The notes beneath the pieces were generated by a model. The model was not told the DNA's origin, did not search any database, and saw only the letters and a list, made by a program, of their open reading frames with translations. The translations under genes and the position numbers were made by a program. Positions 33,541-61,141 of a DNA stretch of 64,000 nucleotides are shown here, piece by piece. The stretch's first letter is position 1. Each line of letters opens with the position of its first letter. Source of the stretch: a virus; the IMG/VR virus record IMGVR_UViG_3300046361_000034, positions 1-64,000 of that record; one strand, given 5' to 3'.

Positions 33541-34263
33541 ATGACTACATTAAATCAAATAGCTGAAAATATTGCATATAAATTAGGAGATCAATTTAAT
33601 CTTACTTTACGAGAAAGTATTAAAGATACTGTAATAATTTATAGAGCTAAATTTATTCGTGATGATTTAGATAAAAACTTTTTATCTGAATCACATTTTT
33701 CACAAGTGGGGACTATACAATTTGAAGTAGTTAATTTACTTGAAGAATTTAATGCTGACTTCAGTAATATTTCAGCTATTTGTGCAAATGTAACTAAACA
33801 AGATAAATATAAAATTCTTAGAAGTAAACAATTAATTCCTACTTCTGTAAGAACTAAAGTATCTAGTAGAAACCCTTTTCTATTTCTAGGTAAAGTAGAT
33901 GGTAGTAAAAACTTTACATTTACTACATTAGATAAATATTATTATTATCAACATATTCCTTATCAAGAAAATAATATATTTTATATATATTTAAACAATA
34001 GAATATATATTATTAATAATTTAAACCTTTGTGATATTAATGAATCTTTAAATATTAGTAATGTAATGATTAAAGGAATATTTGAAAATCCTAGAGAACT
34101 TTATAATGCTTGTGTTAATAATGATACTTATATGGATGATATGCCTTTTCCTATTGGATTAGATATGTTAATGAGTATTACAAATAATATACTTAAAGGA
34201 GAATATCCTATTAAAGTAAAAGATGGTGAACAAGTAAATATACATCCTGATGATAACGAATAA
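33541..34263 (+). CDS. Conserved-type structural protein, possible ring/connector
   Basis: A 240-residue protein beginning TTLNQIAENIAYKLGDQFN and TLRESIKDTVIIYRAKFIRDD, which resembles small connector or ring proteins between portal and tail in crAss-like phages. Centre and end are strand-rich with many Tyr and Asn. It starts the run of tail genes (33541-39761). Exact role unproven. Confidence 0.45.
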   Translation: MTTLNQIAENIAYKLGDQFNLTLRESIKDTVIIYRAKFIRDDLDKNFLSESHFSQVGTIQFEVVNLLEEFNADFSNISAICANVTKQDKYKILRSKQLIPTSVRTKVSSRNPFLFLGKVDGSKNFTFTTLDKYYYYQHIPYQENNIFYIYLNNRIYIINNLNLCDINESLNISNVMIKGIFENPRELYNACVNNDTYMDDMPFPIGLDMLMSITNNILKGEYPIKVKDGEQVNIHPDDNE

Positions 34264-42103: not shown

Positions 42104-45100
42104 ATGGGAAATTATGGAGATATAGGAGAATTTGTATATAATGAACAACGTTCTAGATTTGTTGCTCCTCCTAATGCTAAATTTCAAGCATTAGGTAAAA
42201 AACGAGAAGCTGATTATGTTCAAACTAAAAATGATGTTAATGCTTTGCAAACAATGATGAGAGCATTACCTAAAGATACTGATCCTGAATTATATAATGA
42301 AATATTAGCTAAACAAAATCAAGTATTATCTGGAGTAAATGCTGATAATTATGCAGATAAAGTTTTAGATATAGATCAATATTCTTACGATTTTGTAAAT
42401 AAAGATGGTGCATCTGAATTAATGCAGAAACAAAAACAAATTGGTGATGCTTATAAAGTTTATGATGATGCTTATGAAAAGGGTGAAATAGAAGATCCTG
42501 CTAAAGCTGAGTGGCATAAGCAACGTATAATGGCAGAAGCTAAAGCTAATCCTTTAAAGCGTGATGTTAATGGATTTATATCTAAACCTAATATTAAGCC
42601 TCATGCTTTTGTACCTTATGTTAATGGTCAAGAATTAGTTGATAAAACATTAAAAGGATGGGAAGCAGATGGAAGTGTTGTTTTAGATCCTAAAACTGGC
42701 AAATATAAAGTAAGTGATGAGGTTAGAGGTTACTTAGGTATAACAGATAGAGAAAGTATATCAGAAGCTGAGTTACTTCAAGCTGGTATTAAAACTTTAC
42801 AAAATGATGGTAAATACCAAAGTTATTTAAAAGAAGATGCTCAGTTTAAAACTAGAAATATTGAGCCTAATGCTGAAAATGTAAATGCTATATTAAGTGT
42901 TAATGTTAAAAAAGGATTATTTGGTACAGATAAACCTACTAATGAACAAATTCAAGAATCTATTAATAATGGTAGTTTAAATCCAGTATATGCTATTCAA
43001 GAGGCTTTTAAGAATGAAGAAATGATTAGTAAATCTGTTGTTCCTGCTGCTAAATATGGTTACACTAAAGATAAACTTACTTTATATAAAGATGAGTTAT
43101 TATTAGGTGCATTAAAAGCACAACAAGAAACTTATAAAGCACAAGCTAAACAACAAGCTGAATCTAATGTAGTTGTTACAGTAGAGCCTTTTACTTCTCA
43201 ACAAATTATTAATCCTACAAATATTAAAGCACTTGAAACTAATAAACAAAATTTAATAGAGCAACGTAAAAATCTTCAAATTACATTAAGAGCTAATCAA
43301 CAAGCATATAATAAAGGTAATTCTAATATTACTTTAGAAAAATTAGAAGATAATAATAAACAAGTAACTTTATTAGATAGACAGATTGAAGAACATGAAC
43401 AACAACAGAAATCTTTATCTAAAGCTTTACCTGACAGTGCTAAAAAATTAGGTATTAATTTAATTGATGGAAAAGATAGTGTTTATGATAAAAGTTATAA
43501 ACCTAGTTATGATATTGTTAAAAAGAAGAATCTTGAGACTTTAAAATCAATGGATTTTGAGGTAGATTTAACTGCTGACATAAAAACTGATAAAAATGGA
43601 GTAAAATATATAGATGATCCTGAATATACTTCTGGAAAAAGAATTGTTTATGACCCCTCTGTAAAAACTAATCCTGCATATTCTTCTACTGATACTGGTT
43701 TACAAAGAGTAGGAGATAAGTATATTTTAAAAGTTAAAGGTTCTAGTGGTACAATACCTACATTAATGACCTCTTATTTTTTAAAAAATGATGGAACTTT
43801 GAAAAATAATGTTACATTAAATAATCAAGATGATAAATCTAGATTATATAAAGTTCCTGATAGAGAAGAATTTGGTAAAATGGCTTTACAAGGTTATATT
43901 GATGATGAAACAAGTAGTAGTTTTGATGTTCCTTACACATATGAGAATACAGGTAAAAATTATAAACTTATGCATACTTCTGCTTTTCTTGATGATATTC
44001 AAAAAGTAAAAGATAGTCAAGGTACAATAGGTTTACCTCTTGTTCAAAGTCTTTCAGATATTATGGTTACTGGTGCAACAGTTAAAGATGCTGAGATGTC
44101 TTATGTTAACTTTGAAAAATCTAAAAATAAATCTTTTAGAGATACACCAAGTCAATATAGTATAGAAACAGTAGATGGTGTTACACCATTAGGAGATTAT
44201 CTTAAAGATAAATTTGGTATACCTGCTATAGATGGAAGATACATTGATTGGAAGGCTAGTGATATTAAAACGTTAATACAGACTTCTAGAGAATATGGTC
44301 AAAAAAATGGTATTAATATTGTTTTAACTCCTTACGGTAAAACATTTTTAGATAAGGAAACTGGTGCTGATGAAACTTATGCTAGAGAAAGACAAATTAA
44401 ATTAGTAGGTGTCAATACAATTAAAGATACTAGAGAAGAACAAAATGCACTTAAAAATATACTATTTAAATCATATGCTGGTCAAGCAGGAGATGGTTCT
44501 GACCATGCTACCGATATGAAGAAACAAATGGGTATTATTTATGCTAATAATTCTCCTGAGGGACAAGATTTAAATAGTAAGAATTTATATACTATGAGTG
44601 CTGGAGATGTTAAGCATTGGGATGTTAGAGGAACAGATTATCAAATTACTACTACTTCTAGAGATGCACAACAATCTGATATAATGAATGTAGATTTTCA
44701 TTTAGCTACTGTACAAAATGGACAACAAGTTACTTTAGCTAAATCTGAAAGTACAGGAATTACATCATGGGTTCCTACTAAAGATTTAGATGCAAATAAA
44801 GATATGGCAAGAGTAATATTTGAAAGTCCTGAAGATATTAAAGCTGTTGTTGGTGCTAAGTTACTAGATGAAGATTTTAAAGTTAATAAAGCAACAGTTA
44901 CTAGAAATGCTTTTGCTGAGTACTTACAAGTTAACACTGGTTATAAGTCTACTAATAGTGGTTCAGTAATTGAAACATATCAATCTATTCTTACTAGAAA
45001 TAAATCTTATTATGATGCTGAAAATACAATTAGTATATTAAATAATAAAGGAGAAAAGAAAACATTTGTTTCTAGAGTACCACAAGAAGATTTAGTTGAT

Positions 45101-45427
45101 TTAAGACAAACTGCTCCTGGAAATATCGATACAAATGTTCAATATCCTTATGTAAATAAAGATGTAGCACCAAATGTTAATAAGTTTATAGAAGATACTA
45201 ATGCTAAGGTTACTGGTGGTTTTAGAGGAAACTCTACCCATAATTTAGCTAAAGCAGGTGAGAATAGTTTACATAAATATGGTTATAGTTTAGATTTTGG
45301 TTATACTGATGAATTGTTTACAAATGTTAATAATCCTGAATTTTTAAAAGAACATGGTATTGTTAAATTTGAAAAGCATGAAAATCCGTTACATTTACAT
45401 ATAGAATTTGCACCTAATAATCCTTAA
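42104..45427 (+). CDS. Virion-internal protein with C-terminal M15-type peptidase domain
   Basis: A 1107-residue protein. The first ~1000 residues are helical and Lys/Gln/Asn-rich, without recognised domains, as in ejection proteins. The last ~80 residues hold an M15 (D-Ala-D-Ala carboxypeptidase/VanY) metal site: SLHKYGYSLDFGY with H1057 and D1064 (H-x6-D), and LHLHIEF with H1097/H1099. Such peptidases cut peptidoglycan cross-bridges or stems. A packaged enzyme at this position would open the cell wall during DNA entry. The domain is at the extreme C-terminus and complete in its ligands. Confidence 0.75.
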   Translation: MGNYGDIGEFVYNEQRSRFVAPPNAKFQALGKKREADYVQTKNDVNALQTMMRALPKDTDPELYNEILAKQNQVLSGVNADNYADKVLDIDQYSYDFVNKDGASELMQKQKQIGDAYKVYDDAYEKGEIEDPAKAEWHKQRIMAEAKANPLKRDVNGFISKPNIKPHAFVPYVNGQELVDKTLKGWEADGSVVLDPKTGKYKVSDEVRGYLGITDRESISEAELLQAGIKTLQNDGKYQSYLKEDAQFKTRNIEPNAENVNAILSVNVKKGLFGTDKPTNEQIQESINNGSLNPVYAIQEAFKNEEMISKSVVPAAKYGYTKDKLTLYKDELLLGALKAQQETYKAQAKQQAESNVVVTVEPFTSQQIINPTNIKALETNKQNLIEQRKNLQITLRANQQAYNKGNSNITLEKLEDNNKQVTLLDRQIEEHEQQQKSLSKALPDSAKKLGINLIDGKDSVYDKSYKPSYDIVKKKNLETLKSMDFEVDLTADIKTDKNGVKYIDDPEYTSGKRIVYDPSVKTNPAYSSTDTGLQRVGDKYILKVKGSSGTIPTLMTSYFLKNDGTLKNNVTLNNQDDKSRLYKVPDREEFGKMALQGYIDDETSSSFDVPYTYENTGKNYKLMHTSAFLDDIQKVKDSQGTIGLPLVQSLSDIMVTGATVKDAEMSYVNFEKSKNKSFRDTPSQYSIETVDGVTPLGDYLKDKFGIPAIDGRYIDWKASDIKTLIQTSREYGQKNGINIVLTPYGKTFLDKETGADETYARERQIKLVGVNTIKDTREEQNALKNILFKSYAGQAGDGSDHATDMKKQMGIIYANNSPEGQDLNSKNLYTMSAGDVKHWDVRGTDYQITTTSRDAQQSDIMNVDFHLATVQNGQQVTLAKSESTGITSWVPTKDLDANKDMARVIFESPEDIKAVVGAKLLDEDFKVNKATVTRNAFAEYLQVNTGYKSTNSGSVIETYQSILTRNKSYYDAENTISILNNKGEKKTFVSRVPQEDLVDLRQTAPGNIDTNVQYPYVNKDVAPNVNKFIEDTNAKVTGGFRGNSTHNLAKAGENSLHKYGYSLDFGYTDELFTNVNNPEFLKEHGIVKFEKHENPLHLHIEFAPNNP

Positions 45428-45436
45428 ATAATAAAT

Positions 45437-48400
45437 ATGGCATTAAATCCTAACTTTAGAAAAACTGTATCTAGTAAAGATATAGTTTTACCTCCAGATG
45501 CATCATCTGAAAATCCTCAACAAACTGTTGGGGATTTAGGCGTTCAAATTGGTTCACCTGTTTCAAGTACTTCTCATCCCTTAGAGGACTTAGGAAGTTT
45601 AGTACAAGGATATGTAGAAACTGGTAAAGAAAAATTACTTAATCTTAACTTAGATGAGTATGCTCCTTATTTTGGTAATAATATCGGAGCCTTTGGTAGC
45701 AAAGAAGACCTTGATAAAAGTAGAGCTTTTAGACAAGGAAGTGGGGAACAATTTCTTAATGCTGCTGGTAGAGTAGCTATTAACGTTGTTCCTGAAATGG
45801 TATCACAGCTAGCTAATGCTGCTGACTTTGAAGATTACTTTAATTCAGACCAAGAAGTTGGTAACTGGGTTAGTAATGCTATTAATAAATTTGAAGTAGG
45901 AGTAGATAAAGCTTTACCTATATACAGAGAAAATCCTGATAAACCTTTAGATATAGGTGATAATGCTTGGTGGTTTGAAAATGGTAGTAGTTTAGTTAAA
46001 TCTGCTGCTGCATTTGTTGGTGCAGGTTATCTTACTGGTGCTGCTGCAGGCTCACTATTTACTAAAGGCGGAGAAGCTCTTAAATGGCTTAGTACAATGG
46101 GTAAAGAAAGTCAGTTAGCAGATACAGGTAAACAAATTGCTAATGCTGGTGCAACTCTTGCTAATGCAATGATGTTAAATCAGGCTGAAGGTGTTGGTAT
46201 AGCAACCGATCAATTTCAAAAGAGTTATACTAGGGCATCTAATGACCTTAAAGCATCTGAAGAAGGTAAATCTTTAAGTGATGAAGAAATAGATAATCAA
46301 GCTAGAAAGATTGCTGCACAAGAAGCTACATCTGCACTTAACTTTAATAAGATTAATATTCTGTTAAATTTAACTTCTGCTAATATGTTTATGAAAACTT
46401 CTTTAGGTACTAGAAGTTTATTAAATGCTCCTAGTCTTAAACATGGGTTAATAGAACTCGGTAGAGAAGGTGCTCAAGAATATGGAGAAGAAGTTATTAA
46501 TGATATTTCTCAAAATCAAGCTACTGATAAAGATTATAGTTTTCAGAAAGCTATGGAGTACTCAATGACCGCACAAGGTATCGAAAGCGGGTTACTAGGC
46601 TTCATTGGAGGTGTCGGACAGACCGCCTTAACCAAAGCTGGAAAGTACCTACCTATATATAGCAATCGTGCCTACAATCAAGCGTATGCAAGTCATTATC
46701 AAAGTATGAAAAACACAGACTTGACTGATATTGAAAAAGATGCTAAAGCTAAAGAACTTGCATTAAGAGATGTAGGTACTAATAAATCTAGAGTTTCTGA
46801 TAAGTTTAATGAATCTAGTAGATATACTCAACAACAAAATGCTCTTAACAGGTGGCAGAATTTAGAAAATTCTGATAAAATTGGAGATATATCTAATGCT
46901 TTTTCTACTACTGATGAAATACTAGCTTTACATAAACAAATTGCTGATGCTCATGCTTCAGGAGATGTTGCTAAAGCTAAATCTTTAGAAGAAAGAACAT
47001 TTGGTTTACAAGCTAAACAAGCATTTCAAACTGGAACTACTGATGCATTTGAAAAAACATATAAATCTTTTGCTGCTTTAACACATGAAGAAGCTGAAAA
47101 GAAAGATATATATACAGAAGGAGATGAAAATACACCTAATTATTATAAAACTAGAGCTAATGAAGCAGTTAAAGATATTCAATCTCTAGAAACTATTTAT
47201 AATAATAGTCAAGCATATTTAAATAGTAATGATGTTTATGATATGGAAGAACATAAACATTATACTAATAAAGCTATTAAGTTAAATTTAGAAAATGTAA
47301 CTAAAGAATTTAATAATGCTTTAGAATTATATAAAAATAGACCTGAAACTTTACCTAGTAAAACTAATAGTTTTGTAGATTTAAATAGTCCATCTGGTTA
47401 TGATTTAAATAAAACTCAACCTAATTTTAAAAAGACTCCTAGCTATAGAAAGATTAAAGCTATGCTAGAAGCTGATAAAATTTATAGAGATAATATAGGA
47501 AATATACAAGAAGTTATAGATTTAACAACTTCTAGTAGTTACCAAGAAAAATTAAAAAATGCTATTAATAATAGTAGAAAAGCAGTAGTTAAAGAAAATA
47601 AGTTAAAACAAGTATTTAAGAAAAGATCTGAAAAGAAAAAAGAAATTAATACTTTAGTTAACACCTTAGCTAAACAAGCAAAAACAGAAGTAAATACTAA
47701 TAGTGTAGTAGAAGATGTTAATACTATTAATGATGTTATAGAACCTGGAAAAACTTTGCCTGTAGAGAATATTGAAGAAGAATCTGTTGTTACTCCTAAA
47801 CAAGATGAGGTTAAAAAGTCTTTTCCTAGTAAACCTGTATTTGTTAATGTTCCTTCATTTAATGATGCTACTATAAATAACAAATTTATAGAACTTAAAG
47901 GTATAGCTGAGAATCCTGATATATATTTAGAAGATAGTATTGATTATTTAGAAAAATCTATTGATGCTGTTAGAGTAGCAAAAGACTCTAACGCAATCCC
48001 TTCTCTAGAGGCAAACAATGTAGAGATTGGTTTAAATAGTCTTACAGAAGCTCTTAATGATTTAAAAGCACAAAAAGCACAAGAAGTTGTTAAGGCAGAT
48101 GTACTTAAAAGTATAGGGCGTCAATTATTAAATTCTATTAATGGAGAAGAAGATATTGATACAAATAATACCGATTCCCCTTCTAAGCAATTTGATAAAG
48201 CAAAACAACAAAGAGAAATTAATTTATTAATGGATTATCTTAATGTATTAGATAATACAGGAGTAGATATTACAGATTTCAAACAAGTTGTTAATTCATT
48301 TGAAAACAGTACTTCTAAAGCAGAAGTTATAAAAGCTTTTACTAAACTTAAAGGTCTTTTTATGGCTTATACTGGTCAAGAAGTTGAGGGTAGTTATGCT

Positions 48401-51400
48401 GAAATAATGTATGATTCTGTTGAGAAACAAAAATTATCTGATAGGTATAAAGGTATCAATAAGTATAATGTTATTGGTGATTTTTATACTGCTCCTAAAG
48501 ATGATATCTCTACAGATGCTTTAAATTCTATTGCTGATTTAGCTAAGTTAAATGGTTTAGATGTAAATGGTTCTGGTGTATCTACACAAATTTATAATGA
48601 TACTGCTGCTAATTTATTGGCATACTTATCTAAAAAATATAAAACTACATTTACTAGTAAAAAATCTGATAGTGGTCATAGATATATTGAGGTAACAAAA
48701 TCAGATTTAAATAATTTACTTAATGAGGCATTAAACCAAAGAGTATTAGATCCTGACTTTTTATCTGTTGGTAAAGAAATTACTTTTGTTCCTTTAGATT
48801 CAGTTACTTTAGAAAATGGTGATTTGTTATATGCTAAAGATGTGGATGTAAATGAAAAACCTATTGGTATTGCAGTAGATGGAGAATTAATTGATGGTTT
48901 ATATTTACACGATACTGGTTGGATAAATATAAATAATATAGATAATACTTCTGCAAATATTGTTAATGACCAAAATACTCTTAGAAATTTAAGAGCACAT
49001 ATATTAAATAGTAAAATACCTGTTACTACAGTTGTACAAGAAAGAAGTGCTGGTGTACCTATTTTAGATGAAAGTGGTGAATTAAGTACTGTATTAGAAA
49101 ATACACCTGATGTTGAAATAGGAATTATAAAAGAAGGTTCTGTATTTACTGGTAGAGAATCTATTGTACAAACAGTTAATATTTCTAGAATAGATGAAGG
49201 TAAAGGAGTTATTATTATTCCTTTTAATAATGAAAAATTAGCATTATCGGTAAAAAGAGCTAAATTAGATACTGGTGTAATTGATTCAATTATTACTGCT
49301 ACAGAATTGTATTTAAATGGTACTAAAACTGAGTTAACAGATGAATTAGATAAAACTTATCAAATTAATATATTAACTTCTAGAGGATTAGAACAGTATA
49401 TTAATCAATTTATTGGTTATTCGTCTTTAGATATTAAAGATAAACAATCTTTTTCTGATAAATTAATCAATATTGCTGATAATATTTCTTTAATACAATT
49501 TAATAATGGTAGGTTATATTATGGACAAGGACAAGAAATAGGAGTAAATGATATTTATCCTAGTAAAAATAATGGAGAAGAAAGACAAAAAGATTTAAAA
49601 CATTTTAGACAACATTTGAAAAAAATGTATCATCATATAAATTTAGATTTATTAGGTACAGATACTGGAATTAAACTTATGCAAAATAATAAAGTATTAA
49701 TACCTTATAATACTTATAATGAGTATGCTAAATCTGTTATGTTATCTCCTTATCTTTCTATGAAATTAGATAATGGTAAAACTATTTATACTTTACAAAG
49801 TAGAATTAAGTTTGATTTAGAAAAAGCATTTAGTAGTAATAATAAAGCTAAAAATGTTATTAAATCTTTATCAGAGCCTTTAGATAATACAAATGTAGAA
49901 AATACTGTTCAGCCTTTATCAGAACCTAAAAGTAATGATATAAGTTTACCTAATGGTAAAACTTTTAGTTTTAATGATGTAACAGAAGATACTTTAAGTC
50001 CTGCTAAAGAAAATAATAATTTACCAAATGTATTACTACCTATAGGAACATCAGGTAGTGGTAAATCTACATTTATAAAATCTTTACCACAAGAAAATTT
50101 AGTAATTATAGAACCTGATGCTATGAGAGTAGAATTTACAGGAGATATAAATAATAAAACTAAAGATAAAGAAATATATGAAGAAGCTACTAAAAGAGCT
50201 ATCATTGCTATTAAACAAGGCAAACAAGTAGTATTTGATACTACTAATTTAACTAAAGATAAAAGACTTCCTTTTATTGAAGCTATTAAAAAAGAAATAC
50301 CTAATGCTAATATTCAATATAAGTTAATGGAATTAAATCCAGAACTTGCTAAACAAAGAATAAAAGCGCAAATTGAAAAAGGAGAAAATAGAGCTAATGT
50401 TTCAGATGAAACAATAAATAGACATGCGCAAGCTTATCAACAAATGTTAGAAGATATTAAAGAAGAACCTTTAACAGAATTTAATGATAGTCCTAATTTA
50501 ATTGGAAATGAAAATTATGATGATTTAATTAATTCATCTTCTTTAATTCCAGGATTATCTGTTACTACTCAAACATCATTAGTTAGAAGTATTGTAAATG
50601 ATATTTATAACGAAGCTTCTGATAGTGCTGAACCTGTTAAACTTAATAAACAACTTAAATTAGCAGTTGAAAGTCTAGAAATGATTAGAGATAAAGCTGT
50701 TGAAATTAATCATTCTAAAGCTGGTGAAATTAATAAAGTTGTAGAAGCTGTTAAAGCTAATGTTAAAAAATTAACTAAGGCTGTTAATCTTGAGTACAAG
50801 AAAAGAAACAGTGTTGTAGGAGTTATTAATTTAGATAACTATAATGAATTATCTATAGATGAAGAACAAAGTATTAAAGATGGTGGTAACGATAAATTAC
50901 AACTAACTGAATATACTATTGACCCTAAAACTACTTTAACAGGTAGAGCTAAACAAATGTTAGAAGGTATTACTGATAAGAAAGTAACTATTACTGAAGA
51001 TGGTAAAGAATTTACTACTAAAACTACTTTATTAAATTTAAATATATTTATTCCTTTTGATATTGTTTATAATAACTTAATTAGTATATTAGGTAAATCT
51101 AATACTAATGCTAATATGGTTCAAGTAGATTCTAAATTGATTGAAAAACATGGTAAACATCCTGATTATGTAGTTCATGCTTTAGAAGAACTTTCTAAAC
51201 ATATTGAAACTAAACCATATTTAATTGATGTTATGGAGAAACTTAAAACTGCAGAACCTGATGTTCAAAACTCATTTATATCTGCATTGAATAAAGTTTC
51301 TACTAATCATATATATGTTCATGCATTATATGATAAACCTAATAACAAATATAGTTTAAGAATTAACAAAGCTGCTAGTAAAAATATTACAAATCTTGTA

Positions 51401-54400
51401 CTATCTGAATGGCAAAATAATCTTAATTATAGTAAATTACTTAGTTTAGACAATGATAGAATTATTTATAATTTTAGAGCCATAGATGCATTTAATAAAC
51501 AATTTAAAGAAATTGCTGATAAAAATGTCAATCCTAATTATAAAGAACTTAGTGATTTATTAAAATTAGTAGGAATAGAAATTCCTATTCAACTTTATAA
51601 TACTTGGAATAAATATGGAATTAAAGTAAAAGGAACTAATCAAACATTATTAGATTCTTTTAAATTTTCTACTGGTATATTTAAGAATATAGGTAAAAGA
51701 CTTAATTCTTATAATACTAATAATGCAGAATGGTTAAATCTATCTGAAAATAATTTATATGACGATAGTTCTTTTACAAGTTTAGCAAATTTAGTATCAT
51801 ATTATAGAGTAGACTTATTTAATGACTCTTTTAAAAATGCTAATGGTGATACTATTTTTGGTTATACAAATGATAGATATGCTATTACTAGAGCATTAAA
51901 ATTAAAAACAGATGTTAAATTATTATCTGATTTAAAGTCTGATGTATTTGCTCAAGATTCAGTTTGGTTAAACCAATTACTTAAAAAAGGAGATACTATA
52001 GCTATTAATGAAGAAAGTACTTTCTATAAATACTTTCAATATGGTACAGCTGAAAGCCTTAAAACTAAAAATGCTCTATTAGGTAAAACTATTGATACTC
52101 TTAAACCTGCTGAGTTAGCTAAATTTCATTTTAGTTTGTTTCAAAATGGTGGACTTAAAATAGGTAAAGATTCAGATCCTACTCCTATTATGCAAGTTAT
52201 TTATCCTACTATGGAAGAAAAAGCTAATGCTTTTATATTTCAAGTTCCTGGAGAATATTATAAACTTACTGCAGAAGGTAAAATGCATCCATCAGATAAA
52301 CAAAAACTTGTTGAAATTTTGATATATCCTGAAATTCAAAGAATATTAAAACATCAAGCTGATCCTAATGCTGTACAAATTGATGGGTATAAAGAAGGTG
52401 CTGGAAAATTTTTATTATTTCCTAAACTAAATGATGATGCTAGATTATTTGATAAAACAGGTCAATTATTAGATGAAGTTCTTTTACCTGAATTTAATGG
52501 TATAGATTTTCAAAATATACTACAAGAGCATTTATATAATCATTTAATGCAAATATTTAAAGATACTAGAGAAAATTGGAAAAAATTTGGTATTATTACT
52601 ACTGATAAAAATAGTAAACAAGATCAGTTTCAATATATAGATGCTAGTTATAAAGCTGCTTTTGCTGTACAAGGTATTAATACTACTCTTTTAAATTATG
52701 TAATTAATACTACTGTTGCTAATATGAATATACAACAGCTATTTATAGGAGATCCTGCTTTATATTATAAAGGAAGTTCTGATGCTATGACTACTGGTCA
52801 ACTTACAGCAGATAATCAAGGTAAACGCTTATCAGCTGATAATGCAGGTGCTATTCAATTATTATTCCCACAAGGAAGTACATTTAATACTTTAGTTATT
52901 AAAGATAATTATGTATCTAGTAAAAGAGCTGATTATATTGAAAAATTATATAAAGGTTTTCCTGATATTTATGGACAATATAAAAAAGGAACATTAATGT
53001 CAAATGGTAAACAATCTAAAGGTATAAACTCTACTGATGCTCAAGGTTATCATACTTTAGAAGAACATCTTGATATTATGCATTCATTAGGTACACTTAG
53101 TTTAAAAGATAAAACTAAAATTTTAGATACTTATAATAAAACTGGCAAAATTAATAAAAGTGATAAAGCATTAGTTTTACAACCTTTTAAACCTAGATAT
53201 GTAAATAACTTTAACAGATTTGGTGTTAATGCTAGGCTTTATTTTAAGTACTCTACTCTACCATTAATTAAACAATTTACTCAAGGTACTGATTTAGATG
53301 TATTAAGAGAACATATGGAGAAAAACAAAATACAACTTGTATTACATGAATCTGCTGTAAAAGTTGGAGGATCTGCTAATATTATTGATGTTTATGACTC
53401 TAAAGGTAATATTGTTATACCTGTTAAATGGAAAAGTAGTTTAATTACTAATATTCCTAGAGAAGGATTAGGTATACAACAAGATGTACCATACAATTCT
53501 AAACAAAAAACTGTTAATGATGGTACTCAACAAGCTAAAGAGTTGTTTACAAATATTATGGATATTGATGGATTTATTGATCCTGAAACTGGTAAAGCCG
53601 TAACTGGTAGAGAGTTATCTAAAACCTATTTAGTTAAATACAAAAAATCATTTTTATCTAAATATAATAAATTAATTCAAGAATTAGATTTTGATACTAA
53701 AACACATACTATAGGAAATTATGATAAATTATATAAACTTTTAGAAGATGAGGGTTATAATAGAAATTATAGTTCAAATGATATTCAAGGCTTAGAAACA
53801 GTTAAGATAGGTAATAAATCTGTTAAATTTACTGTACCATTATGGTTAAATACTGCTGATAGTAAAATCGTAGCATTACTAAATTCTATTGTAGATAATA
53901 AAGTTAGAAAAAGAAGTTTTAGAGGTAAGTCTTTTGTACTAGCTTCTGAAAGCGGTACTCAACTTAAAACTATTAAAGATGTTAATTTATCTGAAGTAGT
54001 AAAAGTAGGAGATTGGGATGGTACATTAAAAGGTGCTTGGGAAGATAATGAAAATAAAGGACAAATGTCTTATGCTGAAGTACTTGTTCCTTTTAAATTT
54101 TGGGATAATAAAGGAGAACTTCTTAAGTTAGATGAATTTATGAATGATGGAGTAATAGATTTAACTAGATTACCTGAAGAATTATTAGAAATATTTGGTT
54201 ATCGTATTCCTACATCTGGTTTAAATCTTATATCTAATATTAAAATAGTAGGATTTTTACCTGCTAGTTATGGCGATATAGTCATTGCTCCTGCTGATTT
54301 TATTGTACAAATGGGTTCTGACTTTGATGTTGATAAATTATATACTCATATGTATAATACTCATTATAATGATGTTACTAAATCTTTACATATTGTTAAT

Positions 54401-57400
54401 AAAGATATTAGTAGTCAACATAATAACATTACTCAAAGTATTAAAGTAATGGAAGATAGAGTTAAAGAACTTTCTAGGAATGGAGTAGCATCTGCTAAGG
54501 ATAATAATTTAATAGTTGCTTTACAACAACAAATAAATTTATTAAAAGAAAGTGATTTAATGCAATTAAAAGATATTGATGAACAAGTTATACAAAATGA
54601 TTTATTAGATATTCATAAAGCTGTTTTAAATAACCCTAATGTAGAAGTTCAAAAAGCTAGAACTAATCCATTAAGTTTTGGAGAATTACCTGCATTAGCT
54701 AAAGAAATTTATAAAGAATCTAATAGATTTTTTACACCTTTAGCTAATACTTATCAACAAAATAAATATTTAAGTGCTAGAGCAAGTAAAACTGCTGTAG
54801 GTGTATTTTCACTTGATACTGTTTTTAATAGTGTACTACAATATATAGAAAAACCTATGTATTTTACTAAAGTTGTTAAAGAGGGTGAAAATATGGTAAC
54901 AAAAGATATTAGATATACTATTGGTGGTTATACAACTAATGCTTTAAATAATCCTAAAAGATTAGATGGTAAATGGAAATCTGATAGTTTTATTGCTTTT
55001 ATGGCTACTGCTCTTGATAATGGTAAAGAACAATTATTAGGTAAATTAAATATTAATAGTGATACATTTGATTTTATTAGAGCAGCAAATCAATTAGGAC
55101 TACCTGAGAATTTAGTTATCTTAATGATTAATCAACCTGCTATTAAAGCATATCAATTATCTAAACAATTTTTTGAGGATGTTGAAATTAAGCCTTTTAA
55201 TGAAGATATTGAAAATATATTATCTACAACATCTATAGAAAATTTATTAAAAACTGTTAAAGGTGATGATATAACTTCTGATAGACAACAAGCCTATTTA
55301 AGCTTCTTCAAAGAACTATCTTCTAAAGGCAGACAATTAAAAATACTACAATCTGCTATCAATTCTGATAGTAGTGGTATAGGTAAAAATATATTTTATA
55401 GTATTAAAAAAGCTGAACAAATATTAAATTTACCTAAATCTACAGAAATTTCTAATGTAGATAATTTAATTGGTAATTATATATATCTAAATGAAAGTCC
55501 TGCTTATAATAAATTATCTGTTGAAGAGCAAGAGGGGTATATTAATACTAAAAAAGAAGATGGTTATATTTTATATAATAATGTATTAATTCAACCTACA
55601 TCTTTAGGAGGTATGGCTGGAGTTTATGCTACAATGTTAAATAATCAATTATGGAGTAAATTATATCCTTACACTGATAAGAATTATTATAGTATAATTA
55701 CTAGTATTATCCCTGCTGATTCTGATAATAGTACTATTCAAGGTAGTGCAGATGCTTTACAAAATTCTGTAACTAATTATAAGTCTTTTTTAATTTCTAA
55801 TACATTTAATTTGTTTACATCTAAATATACAAGTATAACTGAAGCAAGAAAAGATTTGTTATTTGATAGAGAAAATCATTTAAGTCTAGGTAGTTTTATT
55901 AGTCAAATTAAAAATACTAAAGCTTATTCTAATGCAATGTTAGATAGATTACAAATTGGTAGAAGTAATCAAATTGTTGATATTACTGGAAGTATTCCTA
56001 CTGTTATTACATATCAAAATGCAGGAAGTGTTGAAATGGATGAAGAAGTTATTATTAATAGTTTTATTGATATGATTGTAAATCCTCAAGACTTAGGACA
56101 ATTTAATGGTGAAAGTATTAATACTAAACAATTAGCAGATTTGTTAATTACTCATCAAATGATTAATGGTGGTATTCAAAAATCAAATCAATTTATTAAA
56201 TATATACCATTTAAGTACTTACAAAAAAGAGGATTTTATAAAGCTGTAGAATCTACTAATGTTGTTACAAATGTAGATACTGTTAATCAAATTCGTAATA
56301 CGTATTATACTCAATATTTACAACATAATCCAGAAGAATTTTATAATGAATTTTATGATATAGAGTCCCCTAAATTTGTAAATGACTATAAAAATATTGT
56401 TAATGGTAAATTAGTAGGAGTAGATCCTCAATTATCTGAAAAAACTAATTTTGTTATTACTAATAAAGCTAATTCTGAAATTTATAGAATTTTTAAACAT
56501 GATGATATGTCAGGAGATTTTATAGAGATAGATAACTTAGGATGGAAGGGTAACAATGAGTATGACATTAATGCAACTTTTGCTGCTAGAAGTTCTATTT
56601 ATATAAATCAAGTAGATAACTATTCTAATTTTGATAAATTAAATGGTATAGATACTAGTAATTTTGAAGAAATCAATGATGATGTTATTGAAAATGCTGA
56701 AGAGCATCTTCCTAATCCTACAGAAACGTCAAATTTTTTACGTTTGGATAGAGATACAAAGTCAGATAATTCTCCTGCTATTTATAATGAAAATAAGTAT
56801 GATTTGGTTAAAAAGTATTATTTAGATGATAATAATTTATCTATTGAAGATAAGTATAGATTGATATTAAAAGAAGTTGAGGCTAATAGTACTAATCCTA
56901 TTGTACAATATTTTAGTAAAAAATTGGTTGATATTATTCCCTATCTTGCAGAAACACCATTGTATGTAAATACTAAACTTCCTGTTCAAGGTAGAGCTAC
57001 TACAACTAAGTTATTAGGAGAACCTGTCAGAATTGAAATTAATCCTAATCTTATTAGTAGTGATGAAGAAATGGCAGAAGTTTTGATGGAGGAAATGATA
57101 CATGGTTTACTTAAAACTGAAATAAGTAAAGGTAGTTCTGAATTTGTAAAAAGTCTTAATAGTATTAAGAATGAAGTAAGAAGTATATTAATAGAAAAGT
57201 ATGGTAAAGAAGCTTTTGATACTGTAGATAAAAAGATTGTTGGAAAATTGCCTTTAAAAGAAGGTGTGGAGCGAAACCTTATCTATAATGTATATAATCT
57301 TGATGAATTTGTTGCTGCTGCTATTAAAGATAAAACATTTCAAGCTTTTCTTAATAGTACTGAAAGTTTAGATTCTACTAAATCTATATTTTCTAGATTT

Positions 57401-60400
57401 GTTGATTACATTAAAAATCTTTTAGTTAAGTTAGGTGTAGTACCTGATAAAAACTTAAGTGCTGTTTTACATGAAATTATCAATGTTGTAGAATCTCCTA
57501 ATTTTCAAGTAGGTAGAGAATTGGTTACTCCTAAATATGTTAGAACTGTTGGTTATCTTAATAATAAGTTTAACTTAACAAACAACACTAACGAATTACG
57601 TTCTAAAGGTAATGCTGAAGAAATAGCAGATTTTATTAATAGAAATATAGTTAATGTAGAGGCTGTTGTTAAAGATAATTTTGTAATACTTACTTCTAAA
57701 AAATTATATGAAGTAAATGAGGATAACTCTTTTGGTACAGAAGATATACAAGATGAGGGATTTGGTTCTAATCTTGTTAATTACTATCAATCTTTAACTC
57801 TTAGAGTAGCCAAATTAAAAGCTAATATTAAAAAAGCTGTTGAATTAAAAGATTTTGTTAGGGTAGCTGATTTAACAGAAAGATATAATGTAGAAAAAGA
57901 TAAATTAGTTGGTGTTAAAAAAATTACAGCTGCTGTAGATTTAGCTGATAAGGGTGAAGAAGATTTACAAATGATAGAAACTATTTTAAATCGTAAGATG
58001 ACTTCTGAAGATATTGTATATGCTAGAGGAGTACTTAACTTTTGGAAAGATGCTAAACGTTTAGTATTTAATGAAAGATTAAATAGTTCTAAGCCTTTAA
58101 CTAGAATTTATGGTGCTATTGAGGGTAGTGCAGAAGCTCTATCAGATAAGTTATTTAAAATTGAGAAAACTTATATGGAAGAGTACATTAAAAAATATAC
58201 TGACCAAGATATTAATCTCGATCAACAGTTTAAAGATTATAAAGATATTAATATTATTCAAGCAAATGTTAGAGATATCTCATCTTATGATAATATTTTA
58301 TTATCTTCTATTTGGTCATCTGTAAAACATGCTAATATAGCTGCTACTAATGAAGGTAATGAGAAGTTAGAAAGTATAAACAATCAATTAACTAAAGTAG
58401 TTCCTGTATTAAAGTCTTTAGGAAATGCTGAATTATTTGAGGTGTTTAGACAGAAAAATTCTAATGGTAAGTTAACTGGTCATATTATTAATCCTTATAC
58501 TGATATATTTTATAAAGATAGAGCAAAAGTTCTTAAAAAATTAAATAAAGACAATACTCAAACTAATTTTATTAAATATCTTAATTGGATTAATCAATCT
58601 GCTTTTGATGTAGATTTAGAGTCTATTTTTCCTACTACTGGTGAAACAGATGCTACAACAATAGTTAGAGAAGAATTAAAACAAAAGTTAGGAGCAGGTG
58701 TTTATAGTTTTTGGTTTAAAAATCAAAAGAATAAAATAGATTCTTATAATGACCATAAGTTTGGACAAACTCAATCATTATTAGCTAAGTATAAATTAGC
58801 ATCTGAACAAGATATTCTTAATAGTGATGAGGCTAATAGAGAATATAAATTTTGGATAGAAAAAAATAGCCCATACAGATTAGCTAAATATGCTTTCCAA
58901 GATAATATTAAATTATCTTCTGAATTTGGTTATACCTCACAAAAATATTATGAAGTTATTCCTAAGGATTCTGAGTACTTAGATAGTAATTATGATACTA
59001 TTTCTAATAATCCTGAATTGTTAGAGTTTTATAATACTATAACAGATTTGTTTAAAGATTTAAAGAAATATGTACCTGAAAGTCAACAAAAAACTTTAGC
59101 TTATGGTGGTGTTCCTTCTCTTGAGAAATCTATTGTAGAATTATATACTGAACATGGTATGCAATTAGGAGTATTACCTATTCAAGATATATGGACTAAA
59201 TCAATGCAAAGTAGTTTTGGTGATAATACCTCAACTATTATTGACCCTGTTACTAATAGACCTATAAATGAAATGCGTATTCCTATTATTAAAGATAACT
59301 ATAAAGAAGTTCAAAAATATATTAAACAAAAATCTGCTGAGTATTTAATAGAAAATAATAAAGCACCTAGTGCTGACATTATTAAAGGATTTGAAGAAGA
59401 TATTATTAATGAAATATCAGAAGGTAAATCATTTGATTTAGGTAAAATTGCTAAAGTTTATACTGCATTAGTATTAGCCCATAAACATAAATCTAAAATA
59501 GAAGATAGTGTTAAAATTGCAAATACTGTTTTAAACAAATATGAGGAAACTAGATTAAGACCTGATGGTACTCCAGAAACAGATGCCATGACTGGTGCTA
59601 TTCAAAGAAAAGGAGCTGATCAATCATTTGGTAATATTAAATCTGCTTATGAGTCTTACATAAATAATGTATTTTATGGGGATATTCATGAAGAAGAAGG
59701 TAAAGGTAAAAAATCTTTAACTAAATCTGAAAAATTAGAAAAAGCTAAATTATTAGGTTTACTTAATCAATTAGAAGTTCAACATGATAATAAACTTATA
59801 GAGGATGAATTATATAAAAGTACTAAAGATAACTTAACTGAACAACTTGGTAATCTTGGTAAAACATTTATATATTCTAAAGCTGGAGATAATGTTCTTA
59901 AATATGTACAATTAAAGTTAATGGGTTGGAATGTATTAGGCGGTATTAGTAATATGGGTTTTGGTTGGCTCTCGAATCAAATAGAAGCCGCAGGTGGACA
60001 GTTTTTTAATAAAGCTGATTTAGCCTATGCCTACAAATTATCGTTGCACTCAATCACTAAAAATGCGTCATTTAATAAACTAGAAACTGATACTGCTAGA
60101 AAGATACGAGAAGGTATGGATAAATGGGACATATTAAAAGATGCATCACATGAGCTTTATACCTCTAGCACTCCTAGTAGTTTTGATAGTAAATTAAAGT
60201 TTCTTAAACCCTTTAATGTAAATCAACGTACAGAATATTTGAATCAAGCACCATTATTTATTGCATTATCTCGTAATACTATGGTAGATACAACTAAAGG
60301 AAAAATTTCTTTATGGGATGGTTTTGATAAAGATTGGAATTGGAATGAAGCTGAATATGGTGCAGAACCTACAGAAGTTATTAATAAAATGAGAATTAAA

Positions 60401-61141
60401 TTAGATGTACTTATTAAAAGAACTCATGGTAATTATGATAACTTATCCCCTTTAAAAGTTAAACGTACTTTTACTGGTAGAGCTGCTAGTCAATTTAGAA
60501 CTTGGTTATATGAGTCTATTGCTACTCGTATAGAAGATGAAAGATTTGATGCTAATTTAGGAGAAACTGTCAAAGGTAGATATAGAAGTGTAGGAAGTTT
60601 AGCTAATATAACAGATAAAAATAATGCTGGAAATATTGCTTTTACTTTACTTAAAGGTTTCTTACAACAATTTAGTTTTGGAACTTTACCTATAAATGGT
60701 AACTTTGAAGAACTAATTGATGGGGAGAAATTTAAAGAAATTGATGCGGTAAATATGAGAAAAGTTTGTATGGAAATTGCATTAGCATTAGATTTGTATT
60801 TATTCTTACTATTAGTATCTGCATTTGCTGGAGATGATGATGAAGCTTATACTAATATATTATTAAATCAAGGTGCTAGACTTAAAACAGATTTATTATT
60901 GTATGTAAATCCTATTGAAGCTAGAAATATTGTTAAAGATATTATTCCTGCTATGAGTATTGTTAAAGATACAGGAGATTGGATGAATAGTGTTGGAAGG
61001 TTTGCTATAGGAGAAGATGAAATAGAAAGTGGAGTTCATGATGGAGATAGTAGAGTACTTAGTAATACTATTAAAATGTTACCATTTGGTAGTAAAGCAT
61101 ATAGTATTTATAATTCAGGTTCACAACAATATTCTAAATAA
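45437..61141 (+). CDS. Giant virion RNA polymerase polyprotein (5234 aa)
   Basis: One uninterrupted frame. Residues 1-400 resemble an ejection protein, with hydrophobic AAFVGAGYLTGAAAGSLF and EGAQEYGEEVIN. A P-loop kinase domain lies at G1537-T1545 (GTSGSGKST), with EPDAMR and VVFDTTNLTKDKR downstream, as in polynucleotide-kinase-like AAA_33 proteins. The RNA polymerase core is marked by GSDFDVDK at 2960-2967 (D2962, D2964, D2966), equivalent to DFDID/DFDGD of the crAss-like phi14:2 virion polymerase and YonO-type enzymes. A zincin-like region has EEMIH at 3885-3889 (first His replaced by Glu) followed by DEFVAAA. Near the end FTGRAASQFRTWLYES matches the C-termini of giant phage virion proteins. 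It should be packaged, injected and start early transcription. Confidence 0.82.
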   Translation: MALNPNFRKTVSSKDIVLPPDASSENPQQTVGDLGVQIGSPVSSTSHPLEDLGSLVQGYVETGKEKLLNLNLDEYAPYFGNNIGAFGSKEDLDKSRAFRQGSGEQFLNAAGRVAINVVPEMVSQLANAADFEDYFNSDQEVGNWVSNAINKFEVGVDKALPIYRENPDKPLDIGDNAWWFENGSSLVKSAAAFVGAGYLTGAAAGSLFTKGGEALKWLSTMGKESQLADTGKQIANAGATLANAMMLNQAEGVGIATDQFQKSYTRASNDLKASEEGKSLSDEEIDNQARKIAAQEATSALNFNKINILLNLTSANMFMKTSLGTRSLLNAPSLKHGLIELGREGAQEYGEEVINDISQNQATDKDYSFQKAMEYSMTAQGIESGLLGFIGGVGQTALTKAGKYLPIYSNRAYNQAYASHYQSMKNTDLTDIEKDAKAKELALRDVGTNKSRVSDKFNESSRYTQQQNALNRWQNLENSDKIGDISNAFSTTDEILALHKQIADAHASGDVAKAKSLEERTFGLQAKQAFQTGTTDAFEKTYKSFAALTHEEAEKKDIYTEGDENTPNYYKTRANEAVKDIQSLETIYNNSQAYLNSNDVYDMEEHKHYTNKAIKLNLENVTKEFNNALELYKNRPETLPSKTNSFVDLNSPSGYDLNKTQPNFKKTPSYRKIKAMLEADKIYRDNIGNIQEVIDLTTSSSYQEKLKNAINNSRKAVVKENKLKQVFKKRSEKKKEINTLVNTLAKQAKTEVNTNSVVEDVNTINDVIEPGKTLPVENIEEESVVTPKQDEVKKSFPSKPVFVNVPSFNDATINNKFIELKGIAENPDIYLEDSIDYLEKSIDAVRVAKDSNAIPSLEANNVEIGLNSLTEALNDLKAQKAQEVVKADVLKSIGRQLLNSINGEEDIDTNNTDSPSKQFDKAKQQREINLLMDYLNVLDNTGVDITDFKQVVNSFENSTSKAEVIKAFTKLKGLFMAYTGQEVEGSYAEIMYDSVEKQKLSDRYKGINKYNVIGDFYTAPKDDISTDALNSIADLAKLNGLDVNGSGVSTQIYNDTAANLLAYLSKKYKTTFTSKKSDSGHRYIEVTKSDLNNLLNEALNQRVLDPDFLSVGKEITFVPLDSVTLENGDLLYAKDVDVNEKPIGIAVDGELIDGLYLHDTGWININNIDNTSANIVNDQNTLRNLRAHILNSKIPVTTVVQERSAGVPILDESGELSTVLENTPDVEIGIIKEGSVFTGRESIVQTVNISRIDEGKGVIIIPFNNEKLALSVKRAKLDTGVIDSIITATELYLNGTKTELTDELDKTYQINILTSRGLEQYINQFIGYSSLDIKDKQSFSDKLINIADNISLIQFNNGRLYYGQGQEIGVNDIYPSKNNGEERQKDLKHFRQHLKKMYHHINLDLLGTDTGIKLMQNNKVLIPYNTYNEYAKSVMLSPYLSMKLDNGKTIYTLQSRIKFDLEKAFSSNNKAKNVIKSLSEPLDNTNVENTVQPLSEPKSNDISLPNGKTFSFNDVTEDTLSPAKENNNLPNVLLPIGTSGSGKSTFIKSLPQENLVIIEPDAMRVEFTGDINNKTKDKEIYEEATKRAIIAIKQGKQVVFDTTNLTKDKRLPFIEAIKKEIPNANIQYKLMELNPELAKQRIKAQIEKGENRANVSDETINRHAQAYQQMLEDIKEEPLTEFNDSPNLIGNENYDDLINSSSLIPGLSVTTQTSLVRSIVNDIYNEASDSAEPVKLNKQLKLAVESLEMIRDKAVEINHSKAGEINKVVEAVKANVKKLTKAVNLEYKKRNSVVGVINLDNYNELSIDEEQSIKDGGNDKLQLTEYTIDPKTTLTGRAKQMLEGITDKKVTITEDGKEFTTKTTLLNLNIFIPFDIVYNNLISILGKSNTNANMVQVDSKLIEKHGKHPDYVVHALEELSKHIETKPYLIDVMEKLKTAEPDVQNSFISALNKVSTNHIYVHALYDKPNNKYSLRINKAASKNITNLVLSEWQNNLNYSKLLSLDNDRIIYNFRAIDAFNKQFKEIADKNVNPNYKELSDLLKLVGIEIPIQLYNTWNKYGIKVKGTNQTLLDSFKFSTGIFKNIGKRLNSYNTNNAEWLNLSENNLYDDSSFTSLANLVSYYRVDLFNDSFKNANGDTIFGYTNDRYAITRALKLKTDVKLLSDLKSDVFAQDSVWLNQLLKKGDTIAINEESTFYKYFQYGTAESLKTKNALLGKTIDTLKPAELAKFHFSLFQNGGLKIGKDSDPTPIMQVIYPTMEEKANAFIFQVPGEYYKLTAEGKMHPSDKQKLVEILIYPEIQRILKHQADPNAVQIDGYKEGAGKFLLFPKLNDDARLFDKTGQLLDEVLLPEFNGIDFQNILQEHLYNHLMQIFKDTRENWKKFGIITTDKNSKQDQFQYIDASYKAAFAVQGINTTLLNYVINTTVANMNIQQLFIGDPALYYKGSSDAMTTGQLTADNQGKRLSADNAGAIQLLFPQGSTFNTLVIKDNYVSSKRADYIEKLYKGFPDIYGQYKKGTLMSNGKQSKGINSTDAQGYHTLEEHLDIMHSLGTLSLKDKTKILDTYNKTGKINKSDKALVLQPFKPRYVNNFNRFGVNARLYFKYSTLPLIKQFTQGTDLDVLREHMEKNKIQLVLHESAVKVGGSANIIDVYDSKGNIVIPVKWKSSLITNIPREGLGIQQDVPYNSKQKTVNDGTQQAKELFTNIMDIDGFIDPETGKAVTGRELSKTYLVKYKKSFLSKYNKLIQELDFDTKTHTIGNYDKLYKLLEDEGYNRNYSSNDIQGLETVKIGNKSVKFTVPLWLNTADSKIVALLNSIVDNKVRKRSFRGKSFVLASESGTQLKTIKDVNLSEVVKVGDWDGTLKGAWEDNENKGQMSYAEVLVPFKFWDNKGELLKLDEFMNDGVIDLTRLPEELLEIFGYRIPTSGLNLISNIKIVGFLPASYGDIVIAPADFIVQMGSDFDVDKLYTHMYNTHYNDVTKSLHIVNKDISSQHNNITQSIKVMEDRVKELSRNGVASAKDNNLIVALQQQINLLKESDLMQLKDIDEQVIQNDLLDIHKAVLNNPNVEVQKARTNPLSFGELPALAKEIYKESNRFFTPLANTYQQNKYLSARASKTAVGVFSLDTVFNSVLQYIEKPMYFTKVVKEGENMVTKDIRYTIGGYTTNALNNPKRLDGKWKSDSFIAFMATALDNGKEQLLGKLNINSDTFDFIRAANQLGLPENLVILMINQPAIKAYQLSKQFFEDVEIKPFNEDIENILSTTSIENLLKTVKGDDITSDRQQAYLSFFKELSSKGRQLKILQSAINSDSSGIGKNIFYSIKKAEQILNLPKSTEISNVDNLIGNYIYLNESPAYNKLSVEEQEGYINTKKEDGYILYNNVLIQPTSLGGMAGVYATMLNNQLWSKLYPYTDKNYYSIITSIIPADSDNSTIQGSADALQNSVTNYKSFLISNTFNLFTSKYTSITEARKDLLFDRENHLSLGSFISQIKNTKAYSNAMLDRLQIGRSNQIVDITGSIPTVITYQNAGSVEMDEEVIINSFIDMIVNPQDLGQFNGESINTKQLADLLITHQMINGGIQKSNQFIKYIPFKYLQKRGFYKAVESTNVVTNVDTVNQIRNTYYTQYLQHNPEEFYNEFYDIESPKFVNDYKNIVNGKLVGVDPQLSEKTNFVITNKANSEIYRIFKHDDMSGDFIEIDNLGWKGNNEYDINATFAARSSIYINQVDNYSNFDKLNGIDTSNFEEINDDVIENAEEHLPNPTETSNFLRLDRDTKSDNSPAIYNENKYDLVKKYYLDDNNLSIEDKYRLILKEVEANSTNPIVQYFSKKLVDIIPYLAETPLYVNTKLPVQGRATTTKLLGEPVRIEINPNLISSDEEMAEVLMEEMIHGLLKTEISKGSSEFVKSLNSIKNEVRSILIEKYGKEAFDTVDKKIVGKLPLKEGVERNLIYNVYNLDEFVAAAIKDKTFQAFLNSTESLDSTKSIFSRFVDYIKNLLVKLGVVPDKNLSAVLHEIINVVESPNFQVGRELVTPKYVRTVGYLNNKFNLTNNTNELRSKGNAEEIADFINRNIVNVEAVVKDNFVILTSKKLYEVNEDNSFGTEDIQDEGFGSNLVNYYQSLTLRVAKLKANIKKAVELKDFVRVADLTERYNVEKDKLVGVKKITAAVDLADKGEEDLQMIETILNRKMTSEDIVYARGVLNFWKDAKRLVFNERLNSSKPLTRIYGAIEGSAEALSDKLFKIEKTYMEEYIKKYTDQDINLDQQFKDYKDINIIQANVRDISSYDNILLSSIWSSVKHANIAATNEGNEKLESINNQLTKVVPVLKSLGNAELFEVFRQKNSNGKLTGHIINPYTDIFYKDRAKVLKKLNKDNTQTNFIKYLNWINQSAFDVDLESIFPTTGETDATTIVREELKQKLGAGVYSFWFKNQKNKIDSYNDHKFGQTQSLLAKYKLASEQDILNSDEANREYKFWIEKNSPYRLAKYAFQDNIKLSSEFGYTSQKYYEVIPKDSEYLDSNYDTISNNPELLEFYNTITDLFKDLKKYVPESQQKTLAYGGVPSLEKSIVELYTEHGMQLGVLPIQDIWTKSMQSSFGDNTSTIIDPVTNRPINEMRIPIIKDNYKEVQKYIKQKSAEYLIENNKAPSADIIKGFEEDIINEISEGKSFDLGKIAKVYTALVLAHKHKSKIEDSVKIANTVLNKYEETRLRPDGTPETDAMTGAIQRKGADQSFGNIKSAYESYINNVFYGDIHEEEGKGKKSLTKSEKLEKAKLLGLLNQLEVQHDNKLIEDELYKSTKDNLTEQLGNLGKTFIYSKAGDNVLKYVQLKLMGWNVLGGISNMGFGWLSNQIEAAGGQFFNKADLAYAYKLSLHSITKNASFNKLETDTARKIREGMDKWDILKDASHELYTSSTPSSFDSKLKFLKPFNVNQRTEYLNQAPLFIALSRNTMVDTTKGKISLWDGFDKDWNWNEAEYGAEPTEVINKMRIKLDVLIKRTHGNYDNLSPLKVKRTFTGRAASQFRTWLYESIATRIEDERFDANLGETVKGRYRSVGSLANITDKNNAGNIAFTLLKGFLQQFSFGTLPINGNFEELIDGEKFKEIDAVNMRKVCMEIALALDLYLFLLLVSAFAGDDDEAYTNILLNQGARLKTDLLLYVNPIEARNIVKDIIPAMSIVKDTGDWMNSVGRFAIGEDEIESGVHDGDSRVLSNTIKMLPFGSKAYSIYNSGSQQYSK

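Follow-up and report, generated by a model that had tools for sequence, protein, structure and literature searches.

A probable virion RNA polymerase cargo protein of a crAss-like phage encoded as a single chain, with a polynucleotide-kinase-type cassette that appears to be mobile

The DNA analysed here (the window) comprises 64,000 nucleotides, positions 1-64000 of a virus record totalling 83,005 bp. At 45437..61141 on the plus strand, ORF calling finds a single open reading frame that starts with ATG, contains zero internal stops (translation table 11) and encodes 5234 residues with a predicted mass of 589.8 kDa (~590 kDa). The best explanation overall, and one that we consider probable, is that this protein is the complete virion RNA polymerase (vRNAP) cargo of a crAss-like or Fipvunavirus-like phage made as one polypeptide, that the linkers between its modules act as slots, that one slot holds a horizontally acquired kinase cassette, and that the whole is delivered at entry. 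An initial annotation had described one uninterrupted 15.7-kb frame encoding a virion RNAP cargo polypeptide of the crAss-like kind with all modules in one chain; the frame is intact over 45437-61141 and the identification is supported by the results below. What that annotation missed is the character of the P-loop domain, which sequence comparisons indicate to be a mobile cassette gained horizontally rather than an old part of the protein.

The genes flanking the giant ORF are those of a crAss-type structural block of podoviruses: terminase large subunit, portal, major capsid protein, ring, and tail tubular and stabilization proteins. For the terminase (14139..16406, plus strand) the matches listed are chiefly crAss-like and Fpv-type phages, together with Azobacteroides phage ProJPt-Bp1. 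The ring protein belongs to CrAss_Ring_2 (PF25702, E 8e-19, over the gathering cut-off; 33541..34263, plus strand), the P22 gp4-like tail tubular protein (35007..35684, plus strand) matches phi14:2 g072 by blastp (E 4e-13), and a 1357-aa virion protein (35688..39761, plus strand) is tail stabilization-like by homology. The block also encodes a Laminin_G_3/concanavalin-like domain protein and an endolysin (29279-31141 and 32288-32782). Upstream of the giant ORF lie a 774-aa ORF (39773..42097, plus strand), possibly a C1-type cargo protein given its weak likeness to p-crAss gp47 and R. jaberico gene49, and a 1107-aa ORF (42104..45427, plus strand), possibly another cargo protein, which ends 9 nt before the giant ORF, has a homolog in the relative L009 and gave zero matches to the cargo proteins tested. 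Equivalents of the C1 and C2 cargo are more likely to be such separate upstream ORFs than the N-terminus of the giant protein. The replication side of the genome includes a family A DNA polymerase, a DnaB-like helicase, an SF2 helicase, Thy1 and an ATP-dependent ligase; a check for an IHF-like gene gave a weak match under the cut-off (Bac_DNA_binding, E 0.006, at 11305-11742). On the minus strand, 62822-63847 encodes a DUF932 protein (PF06067, E 8e-56). A midpoint-rooted RNAP tree places the window phage with environmental and Fpv relatives, outside the recognised Crassvirales families and apart from phi14:2, crAss001 and p-crAss; the Fpv phages carry no family assignment.

Blastp searches, sequence profiles and structural models indicate that the giant ORF is a collinear fusion of three crAss-like virion RNAP proteins, namely an N-module, a two-barrel RNAP, and a zincin domain joined to a C-module. 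The collinear homologs are phi14:2 g067/g066/g065, crAss001 gp47/gp50/gp49, p-crAss gp45/gp44 and Fpv1 gp33/gp34. The N-module (residues 1-640; 45437..47356, plus strand) is homologous to the N-terminus of p-crAssphage gp45, the ZnMc protein of R. jaberico and phi14:2 g067, with HMM E-values of 1e-103 and 6e-106 for p-crAssphage gp45 and the R. jaberico zincin protein, and hhalign probabilities of 97 to phi14:2 g067 and 89 to crAss001 gp47. The N-terminus had been called ejection-protein-like; a Gly/Ala-rich hydrophobic segment seen by hydropathy (residues 190-208) is the one trait that fits this label, the homology being to an RNAP-associated cargo protein (p-crAss gp45/phi14:2 g067).

The two-barrel RNAP core (residues 2081-3280; 51677..55276, plus strand) was modelled with AF2 (pLDDT 85.5, pTM 0.81), and the top Foldseek match of the model is the phi14:2 vRNAP (6vr4_A, E 4.3e-45, TMq 0.73), followed by QDE-1 polymerases. 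The core alone, as a single sequence, also finds 6vr4_A by phmmer (E 6.7e-16). The catalytic metal motif DFDVD (D2962, D2964 and D2966; 54320..54334, plus strand) can be read directly in the sequence, and all three aspartates are invariant in an alignment of 42 sequences. The window protein therefore has the single-chain two-barrel fold with DxDxD in the beta'-like barrel that characterises crAss-like vRNAPs. The initial annotation had proposed an RNAP core with DFDVD and had named in advance the lack of a double-psi beta-barrel match as grounds for refutation; both sequence and structure confirm the core, with 6vr4 first and QDE-1 second. The phi14:2 RNAP is packaged in virions and active in rifampicin-resistant early transcription (PMC10136315). 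The IMG/VR relatives used throughout came from an alignment query, a scan with the RNAP core as a single protein having given nothing. In several of them an interruption of ~480-500 bp, lying upstream of the DxDxD barrel where the window protein has residue ~2750, breaks the RNAP ORF (L027:9330-9812, L035:9319-9812, L037:9306-9812, L061 and L067:10741-11225). These breaks may reflect a split gene or an intron that has escaped recognition; group I introns were considered as the cause and rejected, there being no Rfam match at the gathering threshold. The vRNAP ORF of L017 is divided into overlapping frames (9293-9330) at a point corresponding to window residues ~2350-2364, which suggests either a frameshift or a sequencing error.

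Beyond the polymerase lies a zincin-like domain (residues 3700-4100; 56534..57736, plus strand) that matches phi14:2 g065 (E 1.5e-12) and Fpv1 gp33 (E 7e-40) by HMM and the C1 domain of N4 gp50 by hhalign (probability 94). Most relatives have HExxH at ~800-1100 residues past DxDxD. At E3885-E-M-I-H3889 (57089..57103, plus strand) the window phage has EEMIH instead, the first zinc-ligand His being replaced by Glu as in L009, L010, L020 and L013, with the general-base Glu, the second His and the distal Glu (E3957) retained. Thus the zincin-like region noted initially is present as a domain, but with a degenerate motif. Because the first zinc His is lost, canonical zinc peptidase activity appears doubtful in the window phage, which in turn makes self-cutting of the giant chain less likely and weakens the earlier suggestion of cleavage after delivery.

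The remainder of the protein is the C-module (residues 4101-5234; 57737..61138, plus strand), a large alpha-helical domain related by HMM to phi14:2 g065, crAss001 gp49, Fpv1 gp34 and the end of p-crAss gp44. Its homology to phi14:2 g065 and crAss001 gp49 bears out the proposal of a giant-virion-protein C-terminus. The AF2 model (pLDDT 86.6, pTM 0.87) had no fold match in a PDB fold library from which full-length N4 entries are perhaps absent; in BFVD it finds crAss-like proteins. A hydrophobic helix detected by hydropathy, IALALDLYLFLLLVSAFAG (residues 5114-5132; 60776..60832, plus strand), has a conserved position among relatives, ~110-130 residues before the C-terminus. A crAss-like C-module was also seen in a 2748-aa cyanophage protein (Leptolyngbya phage Lbo-JY46, L091:10471-18717), strongly in a profile search (E 8e-56) and marginally in tblastn; a DFDxD-type motif was looked for in that protein and not found.

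The fusion itself had been regarded as exceptional, a view that does not survive comparison with relatives. Across 79 RNAP ORFs, changes between the fused and the split state recur, and a review gives crAss-like RNAP genes as reaching ~6000 aa, with giant RNAPs a hallmark of the group (PMC10136315). Other long proteins include those of Fpv1 (4401 aa) and R. jaberico (4098 aa), the annotation of p-crAssphage gp44 records a fusion, and a length of 4000-5600 aa is common for the DxDxD-bearing ORF among 80 IMG/VR relatives. Splits occur mainly at two places, between the N-module and RNAP and between the zincin domain and the C-module, for which at least 12 and at least 11 state changes were scored on the RNAP tree, the sample being the 80 best matches, non-random, and some forks of the tree being poorly supported. 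The clade of the window phage, L009 and L010 has full support on this tree, and L009 is fused like the window phage. The giant fusion is real, yet it is already known for the crAss-like group and is ordinary there.

Two other accounts of the single frame have to be weighed. Metagenome assembly might have created the fused ORF or inserted a domain into it, the window phage being one metagenomic record, but this is extremely improbable: L009, from a separate contig set, is fused in the same manner, and the kinase cassette lies in frame within an uninterrupted ORF and is seen again in contigs of many metagenomes. Alternatively, the product could be a polyprotein that is packaged and delivered as a single chain, after which a protease, either its own zincin or a different one, would release RNAP, kinase and C-module as independent proteins. 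Relatives encode the same modules as separate ORFs, split at the two recurrent places, so the modules are able to function as separate chains; moreover, processing by zincin-like peptidases has been proposed for polyvalent proteins (PMC5512222). Against such processing stand the His-to-Glu substitution shared by the window phage, L009, L010, L020 and L013, where most relatives have HExxH, and the N4 vRNAP, which has a similar layout and has been studied as a single 3500-residue chain (PMC12633501). There is also no sign of cleavage sites. We consider a cleaved polyprotein unlikely and favour a cargo that is one polypeptide.

Within the linker between the N-module and RNAP, at residues ~1530-1682 (50024..50482, plus strand), lies a polynucleotide-kinase-type P-loop cassette (PF13671, E 2e-16). 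The P-loop kinase reported initially is thereby confirmed, at G1540-SGKST. In PDB the cassette is matched best by bacterial Pnkp kinase domains (CthPnkp 4jst, E 7e-6, with the D-x-x-R residues aligned), the best NCBIfam match is a partial one to the polynucleotide kinase-phosphatase family TIGR04075 (E 1.8e-9), and the sequence carries the signature of 5'-OH polynucleotide kinases of the T4 Pnk/bacterial Pnkp type (GxxGxGK[ST], D-x-x-R and a lid Arg). K1543, S1544, D1561, R1564 and R1641 are invariant in 15 cassette copies; since these kinase residues are invariant and median dN/dS is 0.24, the cassette is under selection to remain functional.

The distribution of the cassette sets it apart from the modules around it. 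A profile search of the 80 nearest RNAP relatives and the reference genomes found it in none; L009 (51% identity) lacks it and has a short variable linker at that site. Scanning IMG/VR with the cassette retrieved 16 and then 28 loci, corresponding to ~25 independent carriers because a few of the 28 are near-duplicates. The host ORF, wherever assignable, belongs to the vRNAP block: HMM searches detect N, RNAP or C modules in 26 of the 28 loci, and the remaining two lie close to contig ends. Within this block the position of the cassette varies. It is found between the N-module and RNAP (the window, L131, L138 and L153), inside N-module ORFs (L148 and L154), after RNAP (L136, L139, L140, L142, L143, L145, L150 and L156), at or before the C-module (L132, L133, L141, L149, L151 and L155) and, in one case, within the RNAP span (L157). 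The copies are 54-85% identical in amino acids to that of the window over their full length, mostly 75-85% (best segments 60-88%), and the carriers' RNAP cores are 22-45% identical to the window core where long alignments exist. At the cassette edges nucleotide identity to the window rises from ~0.33 to ~0.77 and returns to ~0.33, each time within ~30-60 nt. Outside the RNAP active site, no other set of high-identity islands in an all-against-all nucleotide comparison was as large as that of the cassette family.

Composition and divergence bear on the timing of transfer. In L134/L135 the cassette has a GC3 of 0.05 versus 0.34-0.36 for the rest of the host ORF. For the L131-L136 pair dS is 1.37 in RNAP and 0.55 in the cassette, and for the window-L131 pair the values are 0.58 and 0.49. 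An attempt to date the cassette by synonymous divergence in AT-rich pairs was dropped, the RNAP core itself having a dS of only ~0.6; describing the transfer as recent depends instead on the amino acid identity, the composition of L134/L135 and the L131-L136 contrast. The tree of the cassette copies has low resolution and, as drawn, at least seven slot changes. In L153 (10361-10770) a nested insertion of ~140 aa with no Pfam match lies inside the cassette, and the L157 copy is also apparently interrupted. No cassette relative was found in the bacterial genome contigs scanned, and no cut-and-paste mechanism, flanking repeat or endonuclease was identified for the cassette.

These observations also bear on two different readings of the domain. 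It could be old and vertically inherited, strongly conserved where present and lost in most lineages, as its purifying selection (median dN/dS 0.24) and the shared N/RNAP linker placement of the window and L131 would allow. This is very unlikely, given that carriers hold the cassette at non-homologous positions, that none of the 80 nearest RNAP relatives has it, that its GC3 is discordant with the host in L134/L135, and that it is interrupted in L153 and apparently in L157. The other reading concerns the substrate: the embedded kinase might target peptidoglycan precursors, as zeta toxins do, or nucleotides, rather than RNA or DNA ends. The cassette does score 25 bits against PF06414 (Zeta_toxin), above the cut-off of 22.3, and fusions of phage MuF domains to kinases resembling zeta toxins have been described, with cell-wall weakening as the suggested role (PMC5512222). 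The score for PF13671 is far better (61 bits), however, and the top matches in PDB and NCBIfam are the bacterial Pnkp kinase domains, with D-x-x-R aligned, and TIGR04075. A zeta-toxin-like or nucleotide substrate therefore seems improbable, and we retain the assignment as a predicted polynucleotide kinase on a mobile cassette.

The kinase is one of several enzymes associated with these linkers. In Pfam scans of relatives, 16 of the 43 regions downstream of RNAP contained SF1 helicase domains, located after the zincin domain, and NADAR, cpYpsA SLOG, SprT-like and 2OG-Fe(II) oxygenase domains were also found after RNAP; N/RNAP linkers contained NUDIX, NADAR and histidine-phosphatase (His_Phos_1) domains. 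In the window phage the SF1 (RecD/PIF1-like) helicase is a stand-alone gene (248-1600, minus strand). NADAR occurs at different positions in vRNAP giants with a short shared nucleotide island (L053:5204-6253 and L087:14849-15448) and is a candidate second mobile cassette. A broader proposal is that crAss-like vRNAP proteins form a common carrier whose slots can be exchanged, in which polynucleotide kinase, NADAR, NUDIX, SLOG and helicase cassettes hop between phages and linker positions as a horizontally traded, entry-delivered counter-defence set; we put this forward tentatively, as a possibility that falls somewhat short of even likelihood.

Comparison with known systems places the window protein among crAss-like cargo. 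In phi14:2 (gp66, PDB 6vr4, with g067 and g065) all three counterparts are homologous and in equal order, and the RNAP fold and DxDxD are common to both, whereas phi14:2 uses three ORFs, has an intact HExxH in g065 (LHEIMH) and yields nothing to the kinase cassette profile. p-crAssphage likewise joins RNAP to the C-module in gp44 (4070 aa, annotated as 'RNAP catalytic subunit fused to unknown RNAP subunit') and shares the N-module family in gp45 (1957 aa, annotated as fused to a zincin protease), but there the N-module is a separate protein and the zincin is annotated in gp45. Fipvunavirus Fpv1 gp33 (4401 aa), from the closest annotated isolate in the RNAP search, combines RNAP and zincin in a single long protein; it differs in its intact HEVIH, in an N-terminal part that does not match the N-module profile and in having the C-module as a separate protein, gp34 (1596 aa). 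N4 gp50 (Schitoviridae) has the same order of a membrane-active N-terminal domain, RNAP, an HExxH domain (C1) and a helical C2 (PMC12633501), and its zincin is detectably related (hhalign probability 94). Its RNAP core is of the T7 type rather than two-barrel, with no match to our RNAP profile, and its C2 has no detectable similarity to the C-module (hhalign probability 0.1). A common chassis with N4 was considered and rejected: the C-module showed no profile similarity to C2 and no match in the PDB fold library, so the zincin and the layout are all that the two proteins detectably have in common. The giant protein is N4-vRNAP-like in layout and outside the N4 family. Thermus phage P23-45 gp96 (5002 aa, RNAP fused to tape measure) is also a giant virion two-barrel RNAP fusion, but on the chassis of a long-tail tape measure.

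The combination of RNAP, kinase and zincin-like domain in one large protein also agrees with the description of polyvalent proteins, big proteins of invading elements that unite unrelated enzyme domains, often zincins, and act early (PMC5512222). A text search of the main text of that paper found no mention of polynucleotide kinase, and near-identical, sharp-edged cassettes shifting position within one vRNAP family were not described in the limited set of literature searched.

How such a protein might act can be sketched from its relatives. The crAss001 equivalents were found in virions by mass spectrometry, and the crAss001 cargo has been proposed to exit the tail N-terminus first (PMC10172136); sequence records of phi14:2 g065-g067 cite MS/MS proteomics. 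For the window protein we infer packaging, threading, membrane tethering, and the activity and role of the kinase by analogy. By comparison with phi14:2, crAss001 and N4, the giant protein would be carried as head cargo, pass through the tail in a partly unfolded state with its N-terminus leading, and then refold. The hydrophobic segments near its N- and C-termini probably anchor it at the entry site or envelope, and the RNAP core would transcribe early genes and may assist in pulling DNA inward. The long variable linkers between modules would be tolerant insertion slots, and an enzyme fused into the ejected polypeptide would arrive at time zero, in the same act as RNAP delivery. T4 Pnk acts against PrrC. 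From such knowledge of the family, the kinase would most likely heal RNA or DNA ends broken by host defence nucleases.

Looking forward, the idea of multi-enzyme delivery is already known (PMC5512222), and the new part is the moving kinase cassette, a variation on the polyvalent-protein theme. The layout shared with the N4 vRNAP despite a different RNAP core raises the testable question of convergence versus a common chassis. The polynucleotide kinase cassette offers a concrete, expressible test piece. If it is true that cassettes move from the injected RNAP protein of one phage to that of an unrelated one, such proteins would constitute a natural protein-delivery system, and the list of cassettes would be a catalogue of the enzymes required by phages just after infection begins, within minutes.
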